A DNA stretch of 64,000 nucleotides from positions 1-64,000 of the forward strand of contig JAPLTN010000109.1 of assembly GCA_026398135.1 (NCBI GenBank). The letters are read 5' to 3'. Each line of letters starts with the position of its first letter. Positions within the stretch are counted from its first letter, which is position 1. The notes under the pieces are model-generated. The model did not search any database, had not been told where the DNA came from, and worked only from the letters and a program-made list of their open reading frames with translations. The translations under genes and the position numbers were made by a program. Shown one piece after another: positions 18,183-61,318 of the stretch. Source of the stretch: Verrucomicrobiota bacterium. Lineage in GTDB: Bacteria > Verrucomicrobiota > Verrucomicrobiia > Opitutales > Opitutaceae.

Positions 18183-18281
18183 GTGTAATGTAACCATGTG
18201 GCGGGCCGCCCCCATTTTCAGGCGCGTAACCAACCCGAAACGGTGCTTGCCTCACCTGAAATCAGGCGCACGTTTTCAAAA

Positions 18282-18554
18282 ATGCAATTTGAGTGGGACG
18301 CCGGCAAGGCAGCCGTCAATCTGGCCAAGCATGGCATCAGTTTTGAGCAGGCCGCCCTTGTCTTCGCCGACCCGAATCGCCTCACCGTTATCGACACCCG
18401 CCACGCCGCCGAATCCCGAGAAAATACCACCGGTCTCATCATCGGCGTGCTTATCGCCACGGTCACCCATACCGATCGCGCAGGCGTCATCCGCCTCATC
18501 TCCGCCCGTCCCGCCAGCCGCCAAGAAAGGAACCGCTACCATGCCCACCGTTAA
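18282..18554 (+). CDS. brnT: BrnT-family toxin
   Basis: 90 aa from the ATG at 18282. The hallmark opening FEWDAGKAAVNLAKHGISFE and the following EQAALVFADPNRL identify BrnT, a RelE-fold ribonuclease toxin. The later IRLISARPASRQERNRYH carries the conserved arginine-rich catalytic end. It inhibits translation by RNA cleavage unless neutralised by BrnA. It is complete and overlaps the antitoxin start by 14 bases, the normal toxin-first BrnTA order. It lies in the accessory region between the PRC-barrel gene and purL. Confidence 0.9.
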   Translation: MQFEWDAGKAAVNLAKHGISFEQAALVFADPNRLTVIDTRHAAESRENTTGLIIGVLIATVTHTDRAGVIRLISARPASRQERNRYHAHR

Positions 18555-18873
18555 AATGACCCTCGCTGAGGTCCGCTCCCGTCCCTTCACCGTCATCGAA
18601 AAAGCCCGCCTCGCCGATCTCGCCGCCAAGCCGGACTCGGCCATCGATTTTTCTGAACAACCGGAAATTACCGACGAAGCCATAGCCGCCGGCGTCTTCC
18701 GCCTGGTAGGTCGCGGTGGTGCGCGCACCGGTGCTGGCCGTAAAACCCTCGGCAAGGCCCGCAAAACCGTAAAACTCTCCCCCGCTGCCATCCGCCGCTT
18801 TGAGGCCTATGCCCGCCGCCACAAACTCCGCTATTTTTCCGACGCCCTCGAAGCCGCCAGCCGGCTGATTTAA
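18541..18873 (+). CDS. brnA: BrnA-like antitoxin
   Basis: 110 aa from the ATG at 18541, which has a clear Shine-Dalgarno-like AAAGGA nine bases upstream inside brnT. The N-terminal half contains IDFSEQPEITDEAIAAGVFR, close to the D-S-D-x-P-E-L-T-D motif of BrnA. The C-terminal half (SPAAIRRFEAYARRHKLRYF, then SDALEAASRLI) is a ribbon-helix-helix-like DNA-binding module. A basic glycine-rich linker (GRGGARTGAGRK) joins them, which makes the protein longer than a typical BrnA. It should bind BrnT and repress the operon. Confidence 0.75.
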   Translation: MPTVKMTLAEVRSRPFTVIEKARLADLAAKPDSAIDFSEQPEITDEAIAAGVFRLVGRGGARTGAGRKTLGKARKTVKLSPAAIRRFEAYARRHKLRYFSDALEAASRLI

Positions 18874-19156: not shown

Positions 19157-19567
19157 CTACGTGCTGACAGCAATAGTTTGAAGGGCGGCGGACGGGGTAA
19201 GCACTTTGGCTGGGCGGCAGATTTCCGCCGGGAAATGAGCGGTGTTGCCGGTCACTAAAATCTGGTCGCTTGTGGCGAGGGCGGCGGCGAGAAAAATCTC
19301 ATCATCCGAATCGGGCAATGCAGGCGCTACGCCGACCGGAACTTGATGCGCCGGGTCAAAGGCCGCCAGCAAGGCCGCTACGGCGGAGCGCGAGAGTTTG
19401 AACTTGGGGCGTAAAAGAACCTCCCGGTATTCAGCGAGCATCGGGGCGCTCCAAGCCAGCGTCACGCGGCCGTCGATGGCGGCGCGCAGCACTTGATCGC
19501 AGGTGCCGCCGGCGGTCAGCGCGGCGGATACGAGCACGTTCGTATCGAGCACCCAATCGGGTTTCAT
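19157..19567 (-). CDS. PIN-domain toxin of a type II toxin-antitoxin pair
   Basis: 136 aa from the ATG at 19567. The opening VLDTNVLVSAALTAGGTCDQ carries the first catalytic aspartate, followed by E near residue 47 (LAEYREVL). The pair of aspartates in LPDSDDEIFLAAALATSDQ and the closing ILVTGNTAHFP complete the nuclease site of the COG1569 PIN family. It should be a metal-dependent RNase toxin. Its start overlaps the antitoxin stop by four bases (ATGA), so translation is coupled. Length is normal for the family. Confidence 0.88.
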   Translation of the reverse strand: MKPDWVLDTNVLVSAALTAGGTCDQVLRAAIDGRVTLAWSAPMLAEYREVLLRPKFKLSRSAVAALLAAFDPAHQVPVGVAPALPDSDDEIFLAAALATSDQILVTGNTAHFPAEICRPAKVLTPSAALQTIAVST

Positions 19568-19869
19568 GCGACCGCTGGCTTGGCGCGTCGTGCACGCCGA
19601 ACGGTGGCGATTTCGGCGGCGATCTCGGCTTCGGTGAGTGCGGATGCTCCGTTGCGTGCGGCCTCCGCTTGAGTCGCGTCGAGGGCTCGGCCGAGTAATA
19701 GTCGGCGCAATGCGTCCAAGTCGGCTTCGATTCCGCGCCCGCTGGCAGGAATCAGGTAGGCGGCAGGAGTTCCGTTCTGGGTGATGACCTGCGGCCCGTC
19801 CTTTTTCACTTGCCGCAAAACCCGCCCCGGTTGCTTGGAAAGTTCTCGAGTGGAAATAAAGGAAACCAT
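19564..19869 (-). CDS. Phd/YefM-type antitoxin
   Basis: 101 aa. The N-terminal DNA-binding part has the standard pattern: ISTRELSKQPGRVLRQVKKD, then GPQVITQNGTPAAYLIPAS. The C-terminal half is helical and Ala/Arg-rich and should wrap the PIN toxin (TEAEIAAEIATVRRARRAK). It is first in the operon, overlapping the toxin by four bases. A perfect palindrome at 19880-19893, 11 bases before the start, is a likely autoregulatory operator. Confidence 0.88.
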   Translation of the reverse strand: MVSFISTRELSKQPGRVLRQVKKDGPQVITQNGTPAAYLIPASGRGIEADLDALRRLLLGRALDATQAEAARNGASALTEAEIAAEIATVRRARRAKPAVA

Positions 19870-19893: not shown

Positions 19894-20044
19894 GCAGGGT
19901 CAATAAACTTGATTTATATACGCAACGCTTGGCAGGCGAATGGACTGACGCGCGACGAGCGCTTCACCCGGCGTGTACGAATGGATAATCCAACCCCCAC
20001 AACCAAACGAGGGAGCTTTGCACTCCGAAAAAAGTGCTGGCCGA

Positions 20045-20091
20045 GCTTTCGCAACAAAACGATGCCGCCGGAAAAGGCGTGCGGTGAATTT
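20045..20091 (+). repeat. Diverged direct repeat, copy B
   Basis: Partner of 18136-18182, with roughly 77 percent identity by hand and the same orientation. It sits just outside the 3' end of the restriction gene. The surrounding gap 19894-20111 has no supported gene. Confidence 0.55.
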
Positions 20092-20111
20092 ACCGTATCT
20101 CAGAGAGCCGC

Positions 20112-21134
20112 CTAATTTAAAAAGGGTAATGCGGTGCTTACCGACTGAGGGCAGGTGAAGCTGCCGTTCCCATCCCACACCAACAGCACGTCGCGATCTT
20201 GCACGAGATAGTCTTCGAGCCAGCCGAACCTGCGCGGAAGCGGATTCTCGATGACCAGGACGAGTTTGGCGGCGGGGATATTCTGGATATAGCGATACTC
20301 GTAGAGCTGGGAAATACCGCGCCGGATTTGAGCGTGAGGATTATCCTCGGTGGTTGATTTCATCTCGAACAGGTAATCAACGCCATCACATCGCGCCGAT
20401 AGATCGACGTAGCGGTTGGCCTTGGGCATGGCACCATGGTTTCTCAGGCGTTGCGCCATGAGATTAACTAAAGATTCGTGACTGGCGGTCGCTCGTTCAA
20501 TTGCAGCGTGATTTACATAGAACGAAACCGCTTCACGAGCAGACCTGACACGGCGTGCCTGCTCCTCGTATTCATTCAGCGCGAAAAGGCGCGGTAAGAT
20601 CGGTTCCGAGTCGGACTTTAAGTGTAGAATGGGGGCAGAGTCTGGAAGTATTGTTGCTTGTAGATTTGAGCCATTACCCGCAATCAACCCGAAATATTTC
20701 AACCATGTAATGTAAGTTGAAGCTCGTCGCTGTGCAGTTCCTATCGTGCCGATCTCAGCAACTGCATGTAGAAATGAAGCAAGTTCTTTTGTGCTAACCC
20801 CTAATTGGCTGCGTGAATGTAAAAATGGTAATAGTCTTTGAATTACTGGATCCTTTAATAAGTTCTGGATAAAAATAATATTACGTCGCGCTACAGGTGA
20901 ATTAAAGAATTCGTTGCCTAGGGATGTAAGTTCTGATGCGTTGCCTTTAATTCGTGTTATGAAGCCTAACGCTTCTGTGGCTCTGCGATAATATCTGCCT
21001 TGTCTAGCGTCTAAATTTCCTATTGCTTTAGCTATTTCCTTATCTGTACGGGCACCATTACCTACTGCAATGATGCATTTTATCGCCCTGTCGGGTGTGT
21101 TGGCCTGTAGGATGTCTTCGCTTGGTATTTTCAT
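20112..21134 (-). CDS. Putative type II (possibly type IIS, FokI-like) restriction endonuclease
   Basis: 340 aa. Two winged-helix-like segments come first: DKEIAKAIGN...GRYYRRATEALGFITRIKG at about residues 30-80, and STKELASFLH...ASTYITWLKYFGLIAG at about 113-155. The C-terminal third resembles a PD-(D/E)xK nuclease: E220 in a helix, D250, then E257-M-K259 and a following ISQLYEYRY helix. FokI likewise places winged helices before its nuclease, but homology is my inference. It overlaps the stop of the methyltransferase gene by four bases (ATGA), so the enzyme is made after its protective partner. Base composition is low (23-27 G+C of 60 in sampled lines), indicating transfer. Confidence 0.72.
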   Translation of the reverse strand: MKIPSEDILQANTPDRAIKCIIAVGNGARTDKEIAKAIGNLDARQGRYYRRATEALGFITRIKGNASELTSLGNEFFNSPVARRNIIFIQNLLKDPVIQRLLPFLHSRSQLGVSTKELASFLHAVAEIGTIGTAQRRASTYITWLKYFGLIAGNGSNLQATILPDSAPILHLKSDSEPILPRLFALNEYEEQARRVRSAREAVSFYVNHAAIERATASHESLVNLMAQRLRNHGAMPKANRYVDLSARCDGVDYLFEMKSTTEDNPHAQIRRGISQLYEYRYIQNIPAAKLVLVIENPLPRRFGWLEDYLVQDRDVLLVWDGNGSFTCPQSVSTALPFLN

Positions 21135-23236
21135 TTTGCAATAAATAGGTATTCAAGTGCCTCGTTGTTGTTGTTTCCTATCTTGTGGGCATGATTTCCA
21201 TGATGGTAGCGGTGTGGAATTTCAAAAACGGTCACCGTTTTCTTTTCCCGTTCAAGCAATTCAATCATCTCAGCTTTTTTCGGTATTGAATTTGAAGAAT
21301 ATGACACCACCAGGGTAGATTTTCTGAATAGATGGAACAGTTTTTGAAAAGCAGCCAAAGCACCGGCCTTGGTCGCAAAAGCTGTGTCATATGAACGAAT
21401 CTTTTTGGTCGATGTATGCTCCATGATCTCCAAATTTTTCCAGTATTGGCAGTAACCCTCCACAAAATGATAACGACGAGTATAGTCACAGTCCGATAAA
21501 GGACTTATATAAGGACTATCAATGTAAACTACGTCAGCCAGACTCGGATCTAGATCAAATACGTCGCAATTAAATGCACGATTTTCCTGACCATTAGAAA
21601 ATACCGAGCTATTGAAGCCGTTTACCGCGAGGAGGAATTGTTCACTCATGCTCAATTTAAGATCTGCGCGAGCATCCCATCCCTTTTTGCCGGTGACTGT
21701 AAACATTCCACGAGGTCGTTTTTTCATCGCCGCCCTTGATGCAGCCGCCAAAGCAAGCGATACTTTCAGCGGAGAGTCTAACTCTGTAACGTTGGCCCAC
21801 AAATTATCTAAAAAAGAGCAGTCCTCTTCCTCGAAAAATATATCCTTGTAGGTGTCTCGAACGAAAGTTGGAGCACTGGAATTACGCCTCAACAATCGAG
21901 CAATATCATTTTCAGTCAAAAGGGTGGAGTTATTCTCAACTGTCGCCCGTGCGGTGTGAAAACAGAATTTAAGGAAATCGTTAGAGTAAACACGGGCTCC
22001 CGTTTGCTTTAGAGCATAACCAACGCAACCGCTTCCAGAAAAGGCATCTAACACCGATTCAAATTTTATAGATCCTAAATTTTTAAGTATAAAAGGAAGC
22101 AATTTTCGCTTACTTCCCATATATTTTGTTTCTGGGAAAATTGGCTCTGCAGGAGTTGTAAATTGTAAGGGCGGGCTCTGCTTCTTGCGCGTGTTGGTTA
22201 CGACAAGTTCTGCGATATTTCCACGACCACCCGGCTTGCAGTTAATAAACCGAGGCGCGGAAACGACCGAGACAGTGAAGCCGCTGTAAAGTTCGCGAAC
22301 GCGCGGGTGCTCGGAGTTGGAAAGGGCTATCTGGCAGCCCTTCGCGTCTAGTTCACGCACTAGTTGGGCTAGTTCCACTTGGTCCGCTTCGCGGAATTGT
22401 CCTGCGGTATAGCGCTGAAAATCAGAGAAGGACGATATGGGTAGGTAGGGCGGGTCGAAGTAGATAAAATCCCCCCGGCGCACCTCGGCGGCGACGGCGC
22501 GGAAATCCTGTACCTCGAGCTGCGCGTCTTGCAGGGCGGCGGAGACGGCGAGGATATTGGAACGGTCGTAGAGGCCGGGGGTTTTATTGGAACCCACGGG
22601 GGTGTTGAACTCATTGCGGGCGTTGACGCGCCAGAGTCCGTTAAAGCAGGTCTTGTTGAGGAAAATCGTGCGGGCGGCGCGGGCAAGATCGTCGGTCAGA
22701 TCGTGCTGCGAGCGGACGTTGTAGTAGTAGGCGTCGCCGATGACCTCGAAGCTGTTGGAATGTTCGTCGAGCAGGCGCATCAGCGCTTCGGGGCGGTCGC
22801 GGACGGCGCGGTAGGCGTTGATGAGCTCGCGGTTGCTATCGCGCAGAAAGGCACGCAGGCGGGGAAACCGGTGTTTTAAGTGGAAGAATACCGCCCCGCC
22901 GCCGAGGAAGGGCTCGAAGTAGCGGTCGATGGTGGCGGGAAAGTGGGCGGTGAGCTGGGAAAGGAGACTGTTTTTGCCGCCAACCCACTTGAGAAACGGC
23001 TTGGCTTCAATAGGAGGGACGGTCGCCGCAAACGGCATGGCGAGCTGGCCGGGGCTGTTTTTGCGCCACGTCGCCACGGGTTCGGCGAGCACGCCGTCAT
23101 CGTCCGTCGGTGCTTCTTTCCGAGCCGATTTTTTACGGAGCCCCTTGGCTGGGCGCGCTGATTTTAAAGAAGACCCCTTGGGGTATTTGGTGACGCTGGG
23201 TTTGCTGGTCGGGAGGCGTGGCGAGGCTTTGGGCAC
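21131..23236 (-). CDS. Fused double adenine-N6 DNA methyltransferase of an R-M system
   Basis: 701 aa from a GTG at 23236. A basic, Lys/Ser-rich N-terminus (1-75) precedes a first Dam/D12-class domain: FLKWVGGK near 81, FEPFLGGGAVFFHL near 107, catalytic DPPY at 261-264. After a linker (about 350-365) a second domain begins KYMGSKRKLLPFIL, has VLDAFSGSGCVGYAL near 395, and a variant DSPY at 573-576. Two adenine methyltransferase domains in one chain are known from M.FokI, where each modifies one strand of an asymmetric site. The first domain is GC-rich like the genome; the second is much poorer in GC. Its stop overlaps the nuclease start. Confidence 0.88.
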   Translation of the reverse strand: MPKASPRLPTSKPSVTKYPKGSSLKSARPAKGLRKKSARKEAPTDDDGVLAEPVATWRKNSPGQLAMPFAATVPPIEAKPFLKWVGGKNSLLSQLTAHFPATIDRYFEPFLGGGAVFFHLKHRFPRLRAFLRDSNRELINAYRAVRDRPEALMRLLDEHSNSFEVIGDAYYYNVRSQHDLTDDLARAARTIFLNKTCFNGLWRVNARNEFNTPVGSNKTPGLYDRSNILAVSAALQDAQLEVQDFRAVAAEVRRGDFIYFDPPYLPISSFSDFQRYTAGQFREADQVELAQLVRELDAKGCQIALSNSEHPRVRELYSGFTVSVVSAPRFINCKPGGRGNIAELVVTNTRKKQSPPLQFTTPAEPIFPETKYMGSKRKLLPFILKNLGSIKFESVLDAFSGSGCVGYALKQTGARVYSNDFLKFCFHTARATVENNSTLLTENDIARLLRRNSSAPTFVRDTYKDIFFEEEDCSFLDNLWANVTELDSPLKVSLALAAASRAAMKKRPRGMFTVTGKKGWDARADLKLSMSEQFLLAVNGFNSSVFSNGQENRAFNCDVFDLDPSLADVVYIDSPYISPLSDCDYTRRYHFVEGYCQYWKNLEIMEHTSTKKIRSYDTAFATKAGALAAFQKLFHLFRKSTLVVSYSSNSIPKKAEMIELLEREKKTVTVFEIPHRYHHGNHAHKIGNNNNEALEYLFIAK

Positions 23237-23312
23237 GCGAATATCGGATCGATCCGCAGAAAATGGGCGGCAAGCCGATTGTGGTTATCCCCCTGCACAA
23301 GCGTGGTGACGA

Positions 23313-23507: not shown

Positions 23508-23661
23508 GGGATCACCTTATGCGATGCAGTGCGTTCGGCAAGCCCGCTGTCCGTCGTGTGGAGGCCTCGGGTTCGGCGAGGCGGGCTTGATGTTCGGTGT
23601 CTGTCCGGTATGCGCGGTCGTCGGCAAGCGACGCCCCTACGAAGTTGAAAACGAGTTGGGT

Positions 23662-56412: not shown

Positions 56413-58841
56413 GTCGCGAAGTCGTGGCCTGGCGGGCGGAGGATGCCGAGCACGCCGCCTTGCAAGTCGGCCGCCGACCAGTTCAGGCGCTTTGGCCTCT
56501 GTTGCGGCCGAATTTCCGGACCGTGTTTTTGGCCCCGCAACGCCGGGCAGGCAGTGGCGTGGTGGCCTGGCGTTGGCGGGGTGCGCAGACTCCACCGACG
56601 CCTGCCGCCGCCGATCTGGCCGGACTGCGCCGTCGGCTCGGCCATGCGCTGCAGGATCTCTCCGCCGAGCTGGATCACCGCGAGGGGGTGGTGGCGGGCG
56701 TGGGTTCGTGGGAGTTGCACGTCACGATGGAGAAACTCGTTGGCGCGCTTGCGCAGGCTTCCGATGCGCAGCTTGCGAGCCATGCGGTGCAGACCGAGAA
56801 CGGCTGGCTGATTCGGAGCTGGGGCTTTGCAAAGCCGGGCGCGGCTGAGATCGAGACCACTTCCGAAAATTCCGAAGCCGAGCCGGAGGATGCGGTCGCG
56901 CCCGAGCCTGATCCTGTATCCGCGATCAAGCCTGCGGAGCAGCGAGGCTGGTTGCCGCCCTTGATCTGGAGTGTGGGCGCGGCGGTTTTCGTCGGTGGGA
57001 TGTTTTTCGCTTACCGGAGCGGTTGGTTTACGCCTGCTGCGATTCGCGAGAAATCCGGAGGTGTGGCTTCGTCCGCAATTCAATCGACCGCGTCGTTTAA
57101 GTCCGCACCCGCGGCCAATCCAAGCGCACCGGAATCGTCGTCGCGCAGTACACCGGGGGGTGTGGGCGGAGTTATCGGATTAAAACCGATCCGGGCCGAG
57201 CTTGGTTTACCCGCGTCGCCACCGCTTTCGCTAACCAGTGGCTTAACACCCACGACCCAGGCGGGCAGCGCGGCGGCGGATTTACTCGCTCCAGCCGTCA
57301 TCCCGGGAGCCACGGTCGGCGGGATGAGGGGAGGGCCCGATGCGGCGGAGGCTCAGGCCGGTCCGGCCGGTACGCCCGCTGGCGCGGACGAGCCTGGTTC
57401 GCCGTCGTCGGAAAAGAAGGGTGCGGAGCCCCAGGATACGCCAGCGGAGGCCAGCGAAGCCCGGACGGGAAAGGGCAACGACGCGCAAACGGGAAACAAG
57501 CCCGAGGCATCGCCAAATCCGGACGCAAAGTCGCCGAGCCCGGACTCCAGCAAGCCGCAGTCCCAGTCGCCCGGAAAAACGGCGTCCGAGACCGCCGTGC
57601 CGCCTGCTGCGACCAAGAGTGCCGCAAAGCCCGAAATCGCAGCCAGGCATGCGGCTTCAGCTGCCAAGCCATCCGGAATGCCGCCAGCCGGCGCCACCAA
57701 AGAGGTCAAAGACGGGGCGGCTTCCAGCGAAGAAACCAAAGAGGAAACGCGTACGACGGTTGTGGTGCACGCTAACGAGCGGAAAACTCCGACGCCCGCG
57801 AGTCAGCCTGCCACTGCGGAAAAACCGAAAACTCCCGCCGAGCGTAACCGTAAACCGGAGAAGACCACGGCGTCTCGCGAGGAGGAGAAAACTCCGGAAC
57901 CCCCTACAAGCGCGCCCTCCGTTCCGGAAAACCTTTCCCGTGTCCGCGCCCAACCGGAAGCGCCGGAGGGACAGCCGACGCCGGTAAAAAAGGAAAAACC
58001 GGAAGCGTCCTCCCCATCCCTTCCGCAGCCCGAAAATTCGACGGCGCAAACGATGATCGAGAACGAAGGCGAACGAACTTCAGACGCCAGCGCGGTACGG
58101 GCGGCGGGCGGGGCGGAGTTGGCTCCGGCGCGAAGTCAGGCCGGCGAAGCAAGGTCTTGGGCTTATCACATAGGCGGGTGGCAACTCCGGCGGGTGCGCG
58201 ATGTGGTTTTGGCCACCGCGCCTCGACCGGAGGGCGATTCTGCCGCGGCTGCTGCGCTCGCGGCCGCGCGATCCCGGGCTTGGGAAGAGGCGCGCCGCCG
58301 GGTGCCGGCTATTTTTGAATCCCCGAAGACCCGCTCAGGTTGGTCCTTTGAACTCTCGCCGACGGCTTGGCCGGCGAGTTGGGTGTTGAGTGGCGGCGGG
58401 GCTGGCGTGACCACCGTGGCGGAGCGCGCAGGGGAGGCGCAGATTCAATGGCCGGATCTGTTACCCATTGATGCTCTGGAGGCCAGGCTGGTGCGCGCGG
58501 ATGGCGGCGAGATAGCCCGGTTAACGATTTCGGTGCTTGAGCGCACCATTCGCATAAAAGGATCGGCCGAACTGATCCGAGCGGTGCCGGTTTTTTCGAT
58601 ACAGGAGGCGGAAAGCGGTTCCGCGACCGGTAAAACTCCGGACGGTGCGGCGTTGGCCTGGCGCAGCCTGGAGCGGACCCGCTGGTCCGATACAAGTTGG
58701 ATTACGGAACGCGAGGGGAGGAGTTTGGGCGTGCGCTGCGTGCCCCAGGCCGGGACCGCGCCTGCGGTTAACGGTGGCACCCTCGGCGTGGTCGATAACG
58801 CAAGTGGATGGGCCTTGAGCGTTACCATCCGCGCCGAATAG
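56409..58841 (+). CDS. Large single-pass membrane protein with long disordered region
   Basis: 810 aa, not recognised. The N-terminal part (about 1-140) is a cytoplasmic-looking globular domain (LRRRLGHALQDLSAELDHRE, WELHVTMEKLVGALAQ). One membrane helix lies at about 181-203 (WLPPLIWSVGAAVFVGGMFF). Residues about 210-560 are Pro/Ala/Ser/Lys/Glu-rich and surely disordered. A C-terminal domain (about 565-810) is globular with beta-like segments (ARLTISVLERTIRIKG, GWALSVTIRA) outside the membrane. This topology resembles an anchored periplasm-spanning linker. It is translationally coupled to a lipoprotein gene, which hints at an envelope-spanning pair. Confidence 0.65.
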   Translation: MSREVVAWRAEDAEHAALQVGRRPVQALWPLLRPNFRTVFLAPQRRAGSGVVAWRWRGAQTPPTPAAADLAGLRRRLGHALQDLSAELDHREGVVAGVGSWELHVTMEKLVGALAQASDAQLASHAVQTENGWLIRSWGFAKPGAAEIETTSENSEAEPEDAVAPEPDPVSAIKPAEQRGWLPPLIWSVGAAVFVGGMFFAYRSGWFTPAAIREKSGGVASSAIQSTASFKSAPAANPSAPESSSRSTPGGVGGVIGLKPIRAELGLPASPPLSLTSGLTPTTQAGSAAADLLAPAVIPGATVGGMRGGPDAAEAQAGPAGTPAGADEPGSPSSEKKGAEPQDTPAEASEARTGKGNDAQTGNKPEASPNPDAKSPSPDSSKPQSQSPGKTASETAVPPAATKSAAKPEIAARHAASAAKPSGMPPAGATKEVKDGAASSEETKEETRTTVVVHANERKTPTPASQPATAEKPKTPAERNRKPEKTTASREEEKTPEPPTSAPSVPENLSRVRAQPEAPEGQPTPVKKEKPEASSPSLPQPENSTAQTMIENEGERTSDASAVRAAGGAELAPARSQAGEARSWAYHIGGWQLRRVRDVVLATAPRPEGDSAAAAALAAARSRAWEEARRRVPAIFESPKTRSGWSFELSPTAWPASWVLSGGGAGVTTVAERAGEAQIQWPDLLPIDALEARLVRADGGEIARLTISVLERTIRIKGSAELIRAVPVFSIQEAESGSATGKTPDGAALAWRSLERTRWSDTSWITEREGRSLGVRCVPQAGTAPAVNGGTLGVVDNASGWALSVTIRAE

Positions 58842-59249
58842 CGAGTCCATAAATGTTTATTTAGATTTACGCCTAAGAGCGTGAAAACATTAAGGGATTC
58901 CTCGCAACGTGTAGGAATCAATTTGTGCAATTTACCCTTAAACACTCGTTGCGCGACCCCCAAAAAAATCGGACGCCGCTATCGGGCTCCCGAGAGCGCT
59001 CATCCTCACTTCTATATCCTTGGGCTTCGGGCCATAGCGCGTGTGTCCGCAACCTCACGACAGATTGTTTTAGCATAACGACTGACCACCCTACTGTTAT
59101 TTGGCTCGATCACGTTGATCATCGCGCAAATCCCAAACGGGGCTGGCCGCTGTTTTTCGAATCACGAATGGGGCCAGATTGAGCGTTATTTGTGAATCAA
59201 TCAGCTTCCACTCACACAATTCGTGAAGACGCAATTTTTAAAGGAGTGC
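58842..59249. other. Intergenic region of lower GC
   Basis: About 410 bases with no supported gene. The open frames here (for example at 58925-59182) have no protein-like composition. No clear terminator or repeat was found. Confidence 0.4.
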
Positions 59250-59807
59250 TTAGCTGGCATCATTTTTTTTTAATATCCAGTTTGATATTGTGCAAGCCCG
59301 GCATGTGCCGAGAACATTTATCTTTACAGTAACCGTAAACTTTGATGCCTTCTTAATAAATATTGTTTGCGTCGGCCTGACTGCGTCCTCCGTCATACTT
59401 ACAGTATATTGCAGTTTGATCGGCTGCATACCGCGATCCGCATATTTGTTGATCGTCTTCTGTGTGACCAGGGGCAGTACTACTTTTAATCCTGAATACA
59501 AAGACTTTACGCTAATGTCATTGTAGCTTAGGTTTACGATTTCACTTTCATATGTTCCGGTGTTGCCCGGGGCGGCTTTATAAAAGGTGATTGTTACTTG
59601 GGAACTTAAATCCACACTTTCTCCGGTAAAGGCGGGGGGCCTGCTTAACTTGATTTTCATCAGGTGCTGCCCCAAACTGTTTTTGCCTGCATAGGCAGCA
59701 GTCAGTGAAGCATCATTTGATGCAGCGGTATAGGCGTAAGCTGCGAAGTTGAATGCAAAGGTTAGGATTAGGGTCAGGACTAACCTGACGGAACTTATGA
59801 TGCTCAT
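59250..59807 (-). CDS. Exported orphan protein, low GC
   Basis: 185 aa with a signal peptide (VRLVLTLILTFAFNFAAYAY). The mature protein is Ser/Thr/Lys-rich with alternating hydrophobics suggestive of a beta-sandwich: SSQVTITFYKAAPGN, SIKL-like VVLPLVTQKTINKY, KFTVTVKINVLGTC. Two cysteines near the end (GTCRACTI) could form a disulphide or metal site. GC content is clearly below the neighbours, and about 400 bases of AT-richer gap lie on each side, so transfer is likely. No family is recognised. Confidence 0.6.
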   Translation of the reverse strand: MSIISSVRLVLTLILTFAFNFAAYAYTAASNDASLTAAYAGKNSLGQHLMKIKLSRPPAFTGESVDLSSQVTITFYKAAPGNTGTYESEIVNLSYNDISVKSLYSGLKVVLPLVTQKTINKYADRGMQPIKLQYTVSMTEDAVRPTQTIFIKKASKFTVTVKINVLGTCRACTISNWILKKNDAS

Positions 59808-60249
59808 TTATTTTAGGATGATTTTTCTAGTTTTGATTTTGGTTTTAGGCTCTCGCACACGTTAAGTTTATTTCCGTTAATGGTAATTAACTTGCTTTAC
59901 TGATAAACTTATCGTGCGGGCGACATATCCTAACCAAGTGTAATCGGCGCCACAAAAGCAAGCGACCGGGGTTGTTTTTTTCAAATACGTGAATCTAACA
60001 CAACTCCGTCAAGTGCCTTGAATAGGTAAAAGAGTGTGGTCAGGGTGCGACGCAATGATGACAGCGCGGCAAATCATTAAAATCCCAAAAGGGTCTGTGA
60101 AATCCCATAAAATAAGTAACAAAGGCAATTCCTGAATTCATTTTTGCCTGTGCTTGGGTTGCGTGGCTCCGCGACAAAGCCGCAGGCAAGAATGCTTGGG
60201 TCACCACCGGAGCTGACATCACTTTGGCTTACACCGCCGCGAGGACGGG
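59808..60249. other. Intergenic region with a palindromic repeat
   Basis: About 440 bases without a supported gene. At about 60147-60195 an inverted repeat TTGCCTGTGCTT / AAGCCGCAGGCAA is followed by GAATGC, resembling the dispersed element at 39279. The remainder is AT-rich and featureless. Confidence 0.45.
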
Positions 60250-60456
60250 TCAGTTTTTTTTGCGGCCGAAAAAGAAAAAGAAATACGTGCCCAGAGCGGC
60301 CAGCAGCACCAGCCACCAGAGGTAGCGCAGCTCGCGCGCGGCGAGTTCGGTGAAGGCCAGGACGCGCGGAAACAGCAGGCAAAGGGCGAGGATTAACAGG
60401 GCGACGGCGACGCCGGCCAGCAGTCGCGGTAGCTTGGAGGGCGTGACGTTGCGCAT
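60250..60456 (-). CDS. Small membrane protein (68 aa)
   Basis: Two hydrophobic helices (LLAGVAVALLILALCLLFPR and LWWLVLLAALGTYFFFFF) with a short loop, ending in GRKKN. No family is recognised. It follows the SPFH gene by 28 bases on the same strand, so it is probably co-transcribed and might be a small partner of that membrane protein. Confidence 0.55.
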   Translation of the reverse strand: MRNVTPSKLPRLLAGVAVALLILALCLLFPRVLAFTELAARELRYLWWLVLLAALGTYFFFFFGRKKN

Positions 60457-60484
60457 AACTCGAAAGCCGGATGCGGAAGACCGT

Positions 60485-61318
60485 TTAGCGTTTGGCGGCG
60501 GGTGCGGAAGGCAGGGTGTTCAGCGGCAGGATGAAGTTGGTGCCGGAGTTTTCTCCGCCCGCGCCGCCACCGATCACGAGCGGGGAGCGGCCGTCCCATT
60601 TTTCTACAATCTGAAGTTGGATAAGTCCTGGGGTGTCGCGCAGGGCCTCGCCGCGAATGCGGATGGCCTCGGCTTCGCCTTTGGCGCGGATGATGGCGGT
60701 GTCGGCTTCGATCTGGGATTTTTGCTGGGTGAAGCGGGCTTTGGCGGCTTCCTGCTCCTGCACCATTTTGGACTCGATGGCGGCTTCGAGCTCCTTGGAG
60801 AGAGTGATGTTTTCCAGCACGATATCCTCGATAATCAGGAGGTCTTTGATTTTTTCGCGGGCAGAGTGAAGGGCGCGGCTCTTGATTTCTTCGCGCTTTT
60901 TCACGATTTGCTCGGCGCTTTGCAGGGCGGTGACTTCTTTGAGCGCTTCCTGCACGCGGGGGGCGACGAGGCTGTCAAAGGGGTCGCCGGCGTATTCCTG
61001 ATAAATCTTCACCACCGAGGCTTCGGGGATGCGAAAGAGGACGCGCAGCTGGACGTTTACCTGTTGAAGGTCGGCGGAGTAACACTCGGCGGGCAGGTCG
61101 CGCGTCTGCTGACGGATCTTAACTGGCAGAACATGCGAGATAAAGGGAGACTTGGTGCCAAAGCCCTCAAGCAACGGGGCAGGCGAAACCTTGCCCAAGG
61201 TTATCATGACGCCGCGGGTGCCGGGCTCGACCACGTAGGTGGCCTGCGAGGCGGCGATTACCAGAACCAGTATTAGGAGGACGCTGCCGATCAACTTGCC
61301 CAGTGCGGAGGGTTGCAT
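60485..61318 (-). CDS. SPFH/prohibitin-family membrane protein (HflC-like)
   Basis: 277 aa from the ATG at 61318 (MQPSALGKLIGSVLLILVLV); an ATG at 61405 would add 29 residues. One N-terminal helix is followed by an SPFH domain (YVVEPGTRGVMITLGKVSPA, ADLQQVNVQLRVLFRIPEAS) and a long coiled region (IESKMVQEQEAAKARFTQQK, AKGEAEAIRIRGEAL). Such proteins form ring-like membrane scaffolds and often modulate the FtsH protease. The upstream ATG shares its bases with the start of the divergent NYN gene. Confidence 0.88.
   Translation of the reverse strand: MQPSALGKLIGSVLLILVLVIAASQATYVVEPGTRGVMITLGKVSPAPLLEGFGTKSPFISHVLPVKIRQQTRDLPAECYSADLQQVNVQLRVLFRIPEASVVKIYQEYAGDPFDSLVAPRVQEALKEVTALQSAEQIVKKREEIKSRALHSAREKIKDLLIIEDIVLENITLSKELEAAIESKMVQEQEAAKARFTQQKSQIEADTAIIRAKGEAEAIRIRGEALRDTPGLIQLQIVEKWDGRSPLVIGGGAGGENSGTNFILPLNTLPSAPAAKR

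Follow-up and report, generated by a model that had tools for sequence, protein, structure and literature searches.

What kind of system is encoded by two overlapping genes in a contig of an Opitutaceae bacterium (Verrucomicrobiota; JAPLTN010000109.1)? The stretch that we analysed, hereafter the window, consists of positions 1 to 64,000 of this contig. Within it, a fused double adenine-N6 methyltransferase (methylase) is followed by a small nuclease, and a first-pass annotation made from the sequence alone had seen in the pair a possible compact restriction-modification (R-M) operon of the FokI kind. That the pair is an R-M operon we regard as nearly certain (this and the other gradings of confidence given here are judgements). 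Our leading reading, which we consider reasonably well founded, is a horizontally acquired type II R-M system acting on an asymmetric, GATC-containing site, most likely GGATC/GATCC.

Conservation and arrangement of the operon

Both genes are intact and lie on the minus strand, the methylase open reading frame (ORF) first and the nuclease ORF second. As had been proposed, the 701-aa methylase ORF is translationally coupled to the 340-aa nuclease ORF by a 4-base ATGA overlap (21131-21134), and the position of the methylase GTG start is kept in a relative, L036. A scan for the cleavage domain of the nuclease, using one genome per prokaryote species, returned 58 loci, of which 33 (L036-L068) make up the closest family. 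The two methylase domains, M1 and M2, occur together with the nuclease in 21 of these 33 loci, some of the loci being cut by contig ends. The 21 loci span Verrucomicrobiota, Bacteroidota, Ignavibacteriota, Acidobacteriota, Planctomycetota, Chloroflexota, Armatimonadota and Peregrinibacteria, among others. M1 and M2 are fused in the Verrucomicrobiota relatives, as in the window, and are encoded by separate genes in most other relatives; in many relatives the nuclease start overlaps the methylase stop, abuts it or lies a few bases from it. Since 21 other loci in the closest family have the same genes as a pair or trio, the gene pair is a conserved operon, far beyond chance. A methylase and a nuclease that are adjacent and co-conserved, here in the window and 21 further loci, are what is expected of a type II R-M system. 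Intact, coupled and co-conserved, the genes bear out the earlier description of an R-M operon, and the two domains of its adenine methylase are in keeping with an asymmetric site.

The double methylase and the recognition site

The presence of two adenine methylase domains in one chain, first noticed from the motifs DPPY and DSPY, was confirmed by matches of PF02086 to the whole protein (E 1.8e-69, the best-matching part being residues 84-326) and to M2, the second half, alone (E 3e-15). M1 (residues 78-349) is near Dam and DpnM (TIGR00571, E 1e-83; DpnM crystal structure, 5e-63) and retains their reading residues, namely the lysine of LKW and the reading loop NGLxRVN/EFNxPxG. The two-domain PADLOC type II methyltransferase model PDLC03261 spans the full methylase (E 9e-184) and is also the best model for two of the plasmid methylases that adjoin AlwI-family endonucleases. 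To the AlwI-paired plasmid methylases as a group (Geobacillus pHTA426 and pGS18, Priestia, Acinetobacter and pSM0227-02) the window methylase shows 42-45% collinear identity, including both target-recognition regions. A Dam-like M1 fused to a divergent D12 M2, with similarity over the full length, is the architecture of the AlwI/GmeI type. By contrast, the FokI-paired methylases of two plasmids have the reversed domain order (M2-like, then Dam-like), are only 22-30% identical and have PDLC03287 as their best model; the first-pass assignment of this methylase to the M.FokI kind was thus mistaken. No further D12 methylase match and no DpnI match were found in the host genome.

AlwI-type methylases (M.AlwI, M.EacI and M.GmeI) are reported to consist of two fused domains, each with its own target, GGATC for one and GATCC for the other (PMC3526280, PMC4081073), the specificity of M.GmeI being based on whole-genome single-molecule real-time (SMRT) data (PMC3526280). 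By analogy with M.AlwI and M.GmeI, M1 and M2 would each methylate adenine on one strand, and the site would presumably be that of the AlwI system (GGATC 4/5). We conclude that the site is very probably asymmetric and GATC-containing, a GATC-containing mark being favoured because DpnI replaces the operon at three relative loci (see below). That it is exactly GGATC is likely but less secure, and one observation weighs against it. In the M2 tree, the nuclease-paired clade that includes the window is split from the AlwI-paired clade with 100/100 support; because of this distinctness GGATC is not certain, and the site may have drifted. GGATC occurs in the window at 0.70 of expectation, compared with 0.67 in congeners lacking the operon, and so lends the site no support. 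Avoidance of GGATC was rejected as evidence on the site: depletion to about 0.7 is a genus-wide trait (window, L137-L145) found with or without the operon, and it is uninformative because congeners without the operon are equally depleted.

Two other kinds of site were weighed, and both appear unlikely. The first is palindromic GATC, cut by the nuclease in a type IIP system resembling DpnII/MboI, with M1 as a Dam-type methylase and M2 as a helper. The closeness of M1 to DpnM, its retained Dam reading loop and the replacement of the operon by DpnI in relatives all fit such a system, as does the occurrence of DUF7226, the domain of the nuclease head, in DUF6996-DUF6997-DUF7226 enzymes beside single Dam-like methylases. 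However, M2 is kept in 21 of 21 intact relatives even though a GATC methylase alone would protect, and it is GGATC enzymes that share the M1-M2 architecture. M2 is, moreover, a D12 methylase, whereas the second methylase of DpnII/MboI systems is of the DpnA class, which is non-D12. The DUF6996-DUF6997-DUF7226 type II enzymes themselves (PADLOC PDLC03513) resemble the window in their DUF7226 head and in having a Dam-like methylase next to them, but their head is C-terminal, their catalytic domain is another one and their methylase is single. A Dam-like methylase followed by such an enzyme is seen at L020:6343-8452, and also in L019, L023, L024 and L094.

The second alternative, which we judge no more probable than the palindromic one, is a type IIS system with some other asymmetric site of GATC or GAT type, for example the GGATG of FokI, or with a longer site. 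It would accommodate both the resemblance of the head to that of FokI and the separation of the window methylases from the AlwI-paired clade, but the order and identity of the methylase domains are AlwI-like, not FokI-like, and the recurrent replacement by DpnI suggests that GATC lies inside the site. GGATC/GATCC is the site that we continue to favour.

The nuclease and its AlwI-family neighbours

The AlphaFold model of the nuclease, built on a 27-sequence alignment (mean pLDDT 89), consists of winged-helix modules in residues 1-163 and a C-terminal PD-(D/E)xK-type domain, in agreement with the two winged-helix-like modules that had been predicted ahead of the core. DUF7226 (PF23871) matches residues 29-147 with 48.3 bits, against a Pfam cut-off of 27. 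The only other match in the Pfam scan of the nuclease was AAA_assoc_C, and neither PF09491, the AlwI-family domain, nor the FokI cleavage domain was matched. When the model was compared with known structures, FokI (1fok_A) was the best row of the VIA-align list, residues 5-163 superimposing on its residues 7-270 (Z 11.5, rmsd 2.5 Å, 157 aligned, 20% identity). The suspected likeness to FokI is thus borne out for the head, in its D1-D2 fold, and not for the blade. Nothing in the model corresponds to D3, residue 163 being followed by a linker that contains a single helix and leads into the cleavage domain, and in a sequence-level comparison the FokI cleavage domain showed no similarity to the nuclease profile (probability 0.8%). 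FokI (GGATG 9/13; about 580 aa against 340) thus shares with the window nuclease the D1-D2 fold and the possession of a separate C-terminal PD-(D/E)xK cleavage domain. Profile comparisons, whose support is weak but concordant, paired RRATEALGFI...LT..G of the nuclease with LRWAHALGFI...IT..G of FokI, and the same RRATEALGFI stretch with an AlwI GRKWRAALMQLGFI-type sequence (P about 3e-4 in each case). Against PDB sequences the nuclease profile gave no credible match, only weak ones to EDF1 chains; the phage collection searched held no match, and viral contigs yielded none in one search and one weak match in another.

Invariant residues of the head are Q10, A11 and R44-x-G46-x-Y48-Y49-R50; in the cleavage domain N240, D244, E257-x-K259, N265, Q269, R271 and SQLYEYRY are conserved. 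The core had been drawn as D250...E257-x-K259. Its glutamate and lysine stand, for D244, E257 and K259 are identical in 27 of 27 aligned relatives, but because D244 is invariant while position 250 varies, D244 rather than D250 is likely to be the catalytic aspartate. A Foldseek search with the model had Nt.BspD6I structures as its top matches, and the C-terminal part resembled XisH (2inb). Both the head and the catalytic parts of Nt.BspD6I align with the window nuclease, but in a different mutual arrangement and with 10-14% identity, and its large intervening regions are missing from the nuclease. The same cleavage domain is also found at the end of proteins about 510 aa long whose N-termini are unrelated (L016:2855-4405, L071, L078, L080 and L086). 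A cytosine methylase is the neighbour in L016; the Tolypothrix protein beside a cytosine methylase has 516 aa.

In the mechanism that we propose, the nuclease would find the same site in its unmethylated state through the FokI-D1-D2-like head, and the PD-(D/E)xK domain, held on a flexible linker, would cut a short fixed distance away. Cleavage outside the site is probable. The two-domain methylase and the separate head and blade suggest a compact type IIS-like R-M system. That the nuclease is instead a methylation-dependent (type IIM/IV) enzyme, its winged helices sensing N6-methyladenine (m6A) as those of DpnI and its relatives do (PMC11037411), is barely credible, since its gene accompanies methylase genes in 22 loci, counting the window, where it would be self-destructive, the adjoining methylase gene is intact and co-conserved and its product presumably active, and the head matches that of FokI, a reader of unmethylated DNA.

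The nuclease shares an operon with an AlwI-family enzyme in five loci (L057, L074, L075, L079 and L082); in L075, L079 and L082 a nuclease of 334-341 aa lies between the methylase and this enzyme. Nt.BspD6I is itself an AlwI-family nickase with a partner subunit, and the window nuclease could likewise serve an AlwI-family enzyme as its partner or second-strand subunit, like the small subunit of heterodimeric BspD6I. We consider this quite improbable, because the nuclease stands alone in most operons and possesses a reading head of its own, and because the nuclease gene is split in L074 while the AlwI-family gene is intact. A search of the host genome for an AlwI-family gene came back empty, but no control genome gave a signal either, so that absence is not established. 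The L074 locus (L074:1025-6444, Sporomusa acidovorans) holds a double methylase, the AlwI-family enzyme, a TIR-like 205-aa ORF and the split nuclease gene. In a separate search of the 345 genomes around that of L066, nearly all matches apart from the locus already known were DUF7226 relatives. With its PF09491 domain and about 565 aa, the AlwI endonuclease is distinct from the window nuclease, which we continue to read as the restriction enzyme of the operon.

A similar arrangement has been described in Geobacter metallireducens, where a 333-aa ORF with few relatives separates the GGATC methylase gene from its AlwI-like partner; the second-closest relative of this ORF is a 509-aa protein beside another methylase, and of the GmeI locus the methylase alone was characterised (PMC3526280). 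Because L075, L079 and L082 hold a family nuclease at the same position, we infer that the Geobacter ORF, Gmet_3139, probably belongs to the nuclease family of the window. The GmeI locus is like the window in its fused two-domain adenine methylase with an adjoining ORF of about 330 aa, but has GmeIP beside the 333-aa ORF, whereas no AlwI-family enzyme adjoins the window genes.

Broken relatives and the origin of the operon

Of the 33 loci in the closest family, 10 are without the operon's middle part. Every broken locus is from a metagenome-assembled genome (MAG). In nine of the ten, either DpnI (L041, L049 and L055; PF06044 E 1e-83 for L049) or a protein of 238 aa (L036, L037, L040, L056, L063 and L067) fills the gap or sits directly upstream of what is left of the nuclease. 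L065 is a plain deletion with no replacement gene, and L054 is the mirror image, the operon being intact and an upstream DpnI truncated. The residue at which the remaining M1 ends and that at which the nuclease resumes differ from locus to locus, and the flanks of the broken loci resemble different intact operons; several independent events are for these reasons the simplest reading. These results suggest repeated replacement of the operon by methyl-directed nucleases. None of 14 genomic contexts of these proteins (DpnI or the 238-aa one) retrieved from an unselected phylum sample contained remnants of M1, M2 or the nuclease (one context, L189, has a distant AlwI-like gene), so that the association of both proteins with the operon stems from the broken operons.

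The 238-aa protein is winged-helix-like at its N-terminus and conserves an E-V-E motif. Its family has no Pfam match, weak similarity to PADLOC type II restriction endonucleases and usually no neighbouring methylase. These features make it a candidate methylation-dependent nuclease; its AlphaFold model was too poor for inference (pLDDT 51). A small CarS-type SH3 protein (L036:5612-5875, PF18354; also in L037, L040, L041, L055, L056, L063 and L067) accompanies DpnI as well as the 238-aa protein at broken loci.

DpnI cuts fully methylated GATC, and GGATC methylated on both strands contains this target. Because DpnI would cut the GATC methylated by such a methylase, it should be tolerable only if the methylase is lost simultaneously. 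Three observations argue against a strict exclusion: the MAG G326 holds both an intact DpnI and an intact AlwI-type methylase, an intact Dam-like methylase in L094 adjoins a 339-aa protein that is distantly homologous to the 238-aa one, and in L189 a 28% homologue lies between a methylase and the AlwI-like gene. The apparent conflict in G326 (L180 and L095) may reflect contamination. Replacement of a methylase by a DpnI-type gene is described for the dam-replacing gene (drg) of Neisseria (PMC4269198, PMC516771), and DpnI-like genes beside frameshifted methylases have been noted (PMC11037411). As in the DpnI/DpnII alternative cassettes and Neisseria drg, a methyl-directed nuclease stands in place of a methylase in the broken relatives. 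Here, unlike in those cases, it is an asymmetric-site R-M operon that is replaced, in several lineages, with varied breakpoints and sometimes by a protein other than DpnI.

Taken together, the DUF7226-PD-(D/E)xK proteins may constitute an unrecognised, widespread family of compact FokI-headed endonucleases whose operons are recurrently overwritten by DpnI or the 238-aa family, a proposal that we put forward tentatively, at slightly less than even confidence. If it is true, the 238-aa family, so far undescribed, would add a new reader for the m6A mark of these operons, and the locus would toggle between protection by methylation and attack on it. DUF7226, a domain without assigned function, gains a candidate role as a FokI-type reading head. 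The small modular endonuclease (340 aa), with head and blade separate and representatives in many phyla, is potentially useful beside FokI in DNA tools. The broken relatives are a natural record of conflict between methylation-protected and methylation-dependent restriction and supply candidate new m6A-dependent nucleases.

Table 1. Coordinates of the operon features in the window and of stretches in relative loci
Feature	Position	Strand	Basis
Fused double adenine-N6 methyltransferase, 701 aa, GTG start	21131..23236	-	PADLOC PDLC03261, whole-length match
Methyltransferase N-terminal extension rich in K/R/S/P, residues 1-77, ahead of first D12 domain	23006..23236	-	sequence; L039 comparable
M1, residues 78-349, Dam/DpnM-like D12, FxGGG and DPPY motifs	22190..23005	-	
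M2, residues 365-701, divergent D12, DSPY motif	21134..22144	-	PF02086 3e-15; aligned to AlwI-type M2
ATGA overlap of methylase stop and nuclease start, 4 bases	21131..21134	-	translational coupling
Nuclease, 340 aa, FokI-like reading head and PD-(D/E)xK cleavage domain	20112..21134	-	
Nuclease reading head, residues 5-163, DUF7226, FokI D1-D2 fold	20646..21122	-	1fok_A structure match
PD-(D/E)xK cleavage domain, residues 209-340	20115..20510	-	model, conservation, Foldseek XisH 2inb
Predicted catalytic stretch, D244 ... E257-M-K259	20358..20405	-	invariant in 27/27 relatives
Low-GC core over M2 and nuclease head, GC about 0.35-0.48, GC3 0.28-0.48	20690..22190	-	
Approximate inserted segment with operon	19904..23308	.	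missing in congener G747
Broken stretches, 238-aa protein	L036:3867-6465, L037:4510-6465, L040:264-3615, L056:4229-6470, L063:4115-6460, L067:5077-6324		
Broken stretches, DpnI	L041:1-2095, L049:4358-6468, L055:4806-6462		
238-aa protein, examples	L036:4905-5621; Halobacterium plasmid L148:4001-4729		

The operon was recently inserted between purL on one side and a Phd/PIN toxin-antitoxin pair on the other, since the bases matching window positions 23610 and 19903, which flank it, are nearly adjacent in the congener G747, and in another congener, G741, similarity reaches down to 23308 and stops there, the operon not being shared. In our reading, the R-M operon was acquired horizontally. Its third-codon-position GC content (GC3) is a mosaic, reaching 0.84 in M1, falling to 0.28-0.48 over M2 and the nuclease head and rising to 0.71 in the cleavage domain; the intact relatives L038 and L039 vary less in composition along their length. 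L036 is the closest relative of both operon ends (89% and 85% DNA identity), while the middle is wholly different, and in a synteny comparison L036 and the window had nothing in common outside the operon. Given the mosaic GC3 and the match to L036 at the ends only, we read the operon as having undergone recombination in its middle. Elsewhere in the window, a second low-GC stretch (58001-61000; about 0.51-0.53 against about 0.63) holds ORFs without Pfam matches. Two toxin-antitoxin modules lie beside the insertion, at 18270-18873 and 19157-19869: in one, BrnT is paired with an ORF that is likely to encode a BrnA-type antitoxin; in the other, a Phd/YefM antitoxin accompanies a PIN protein.

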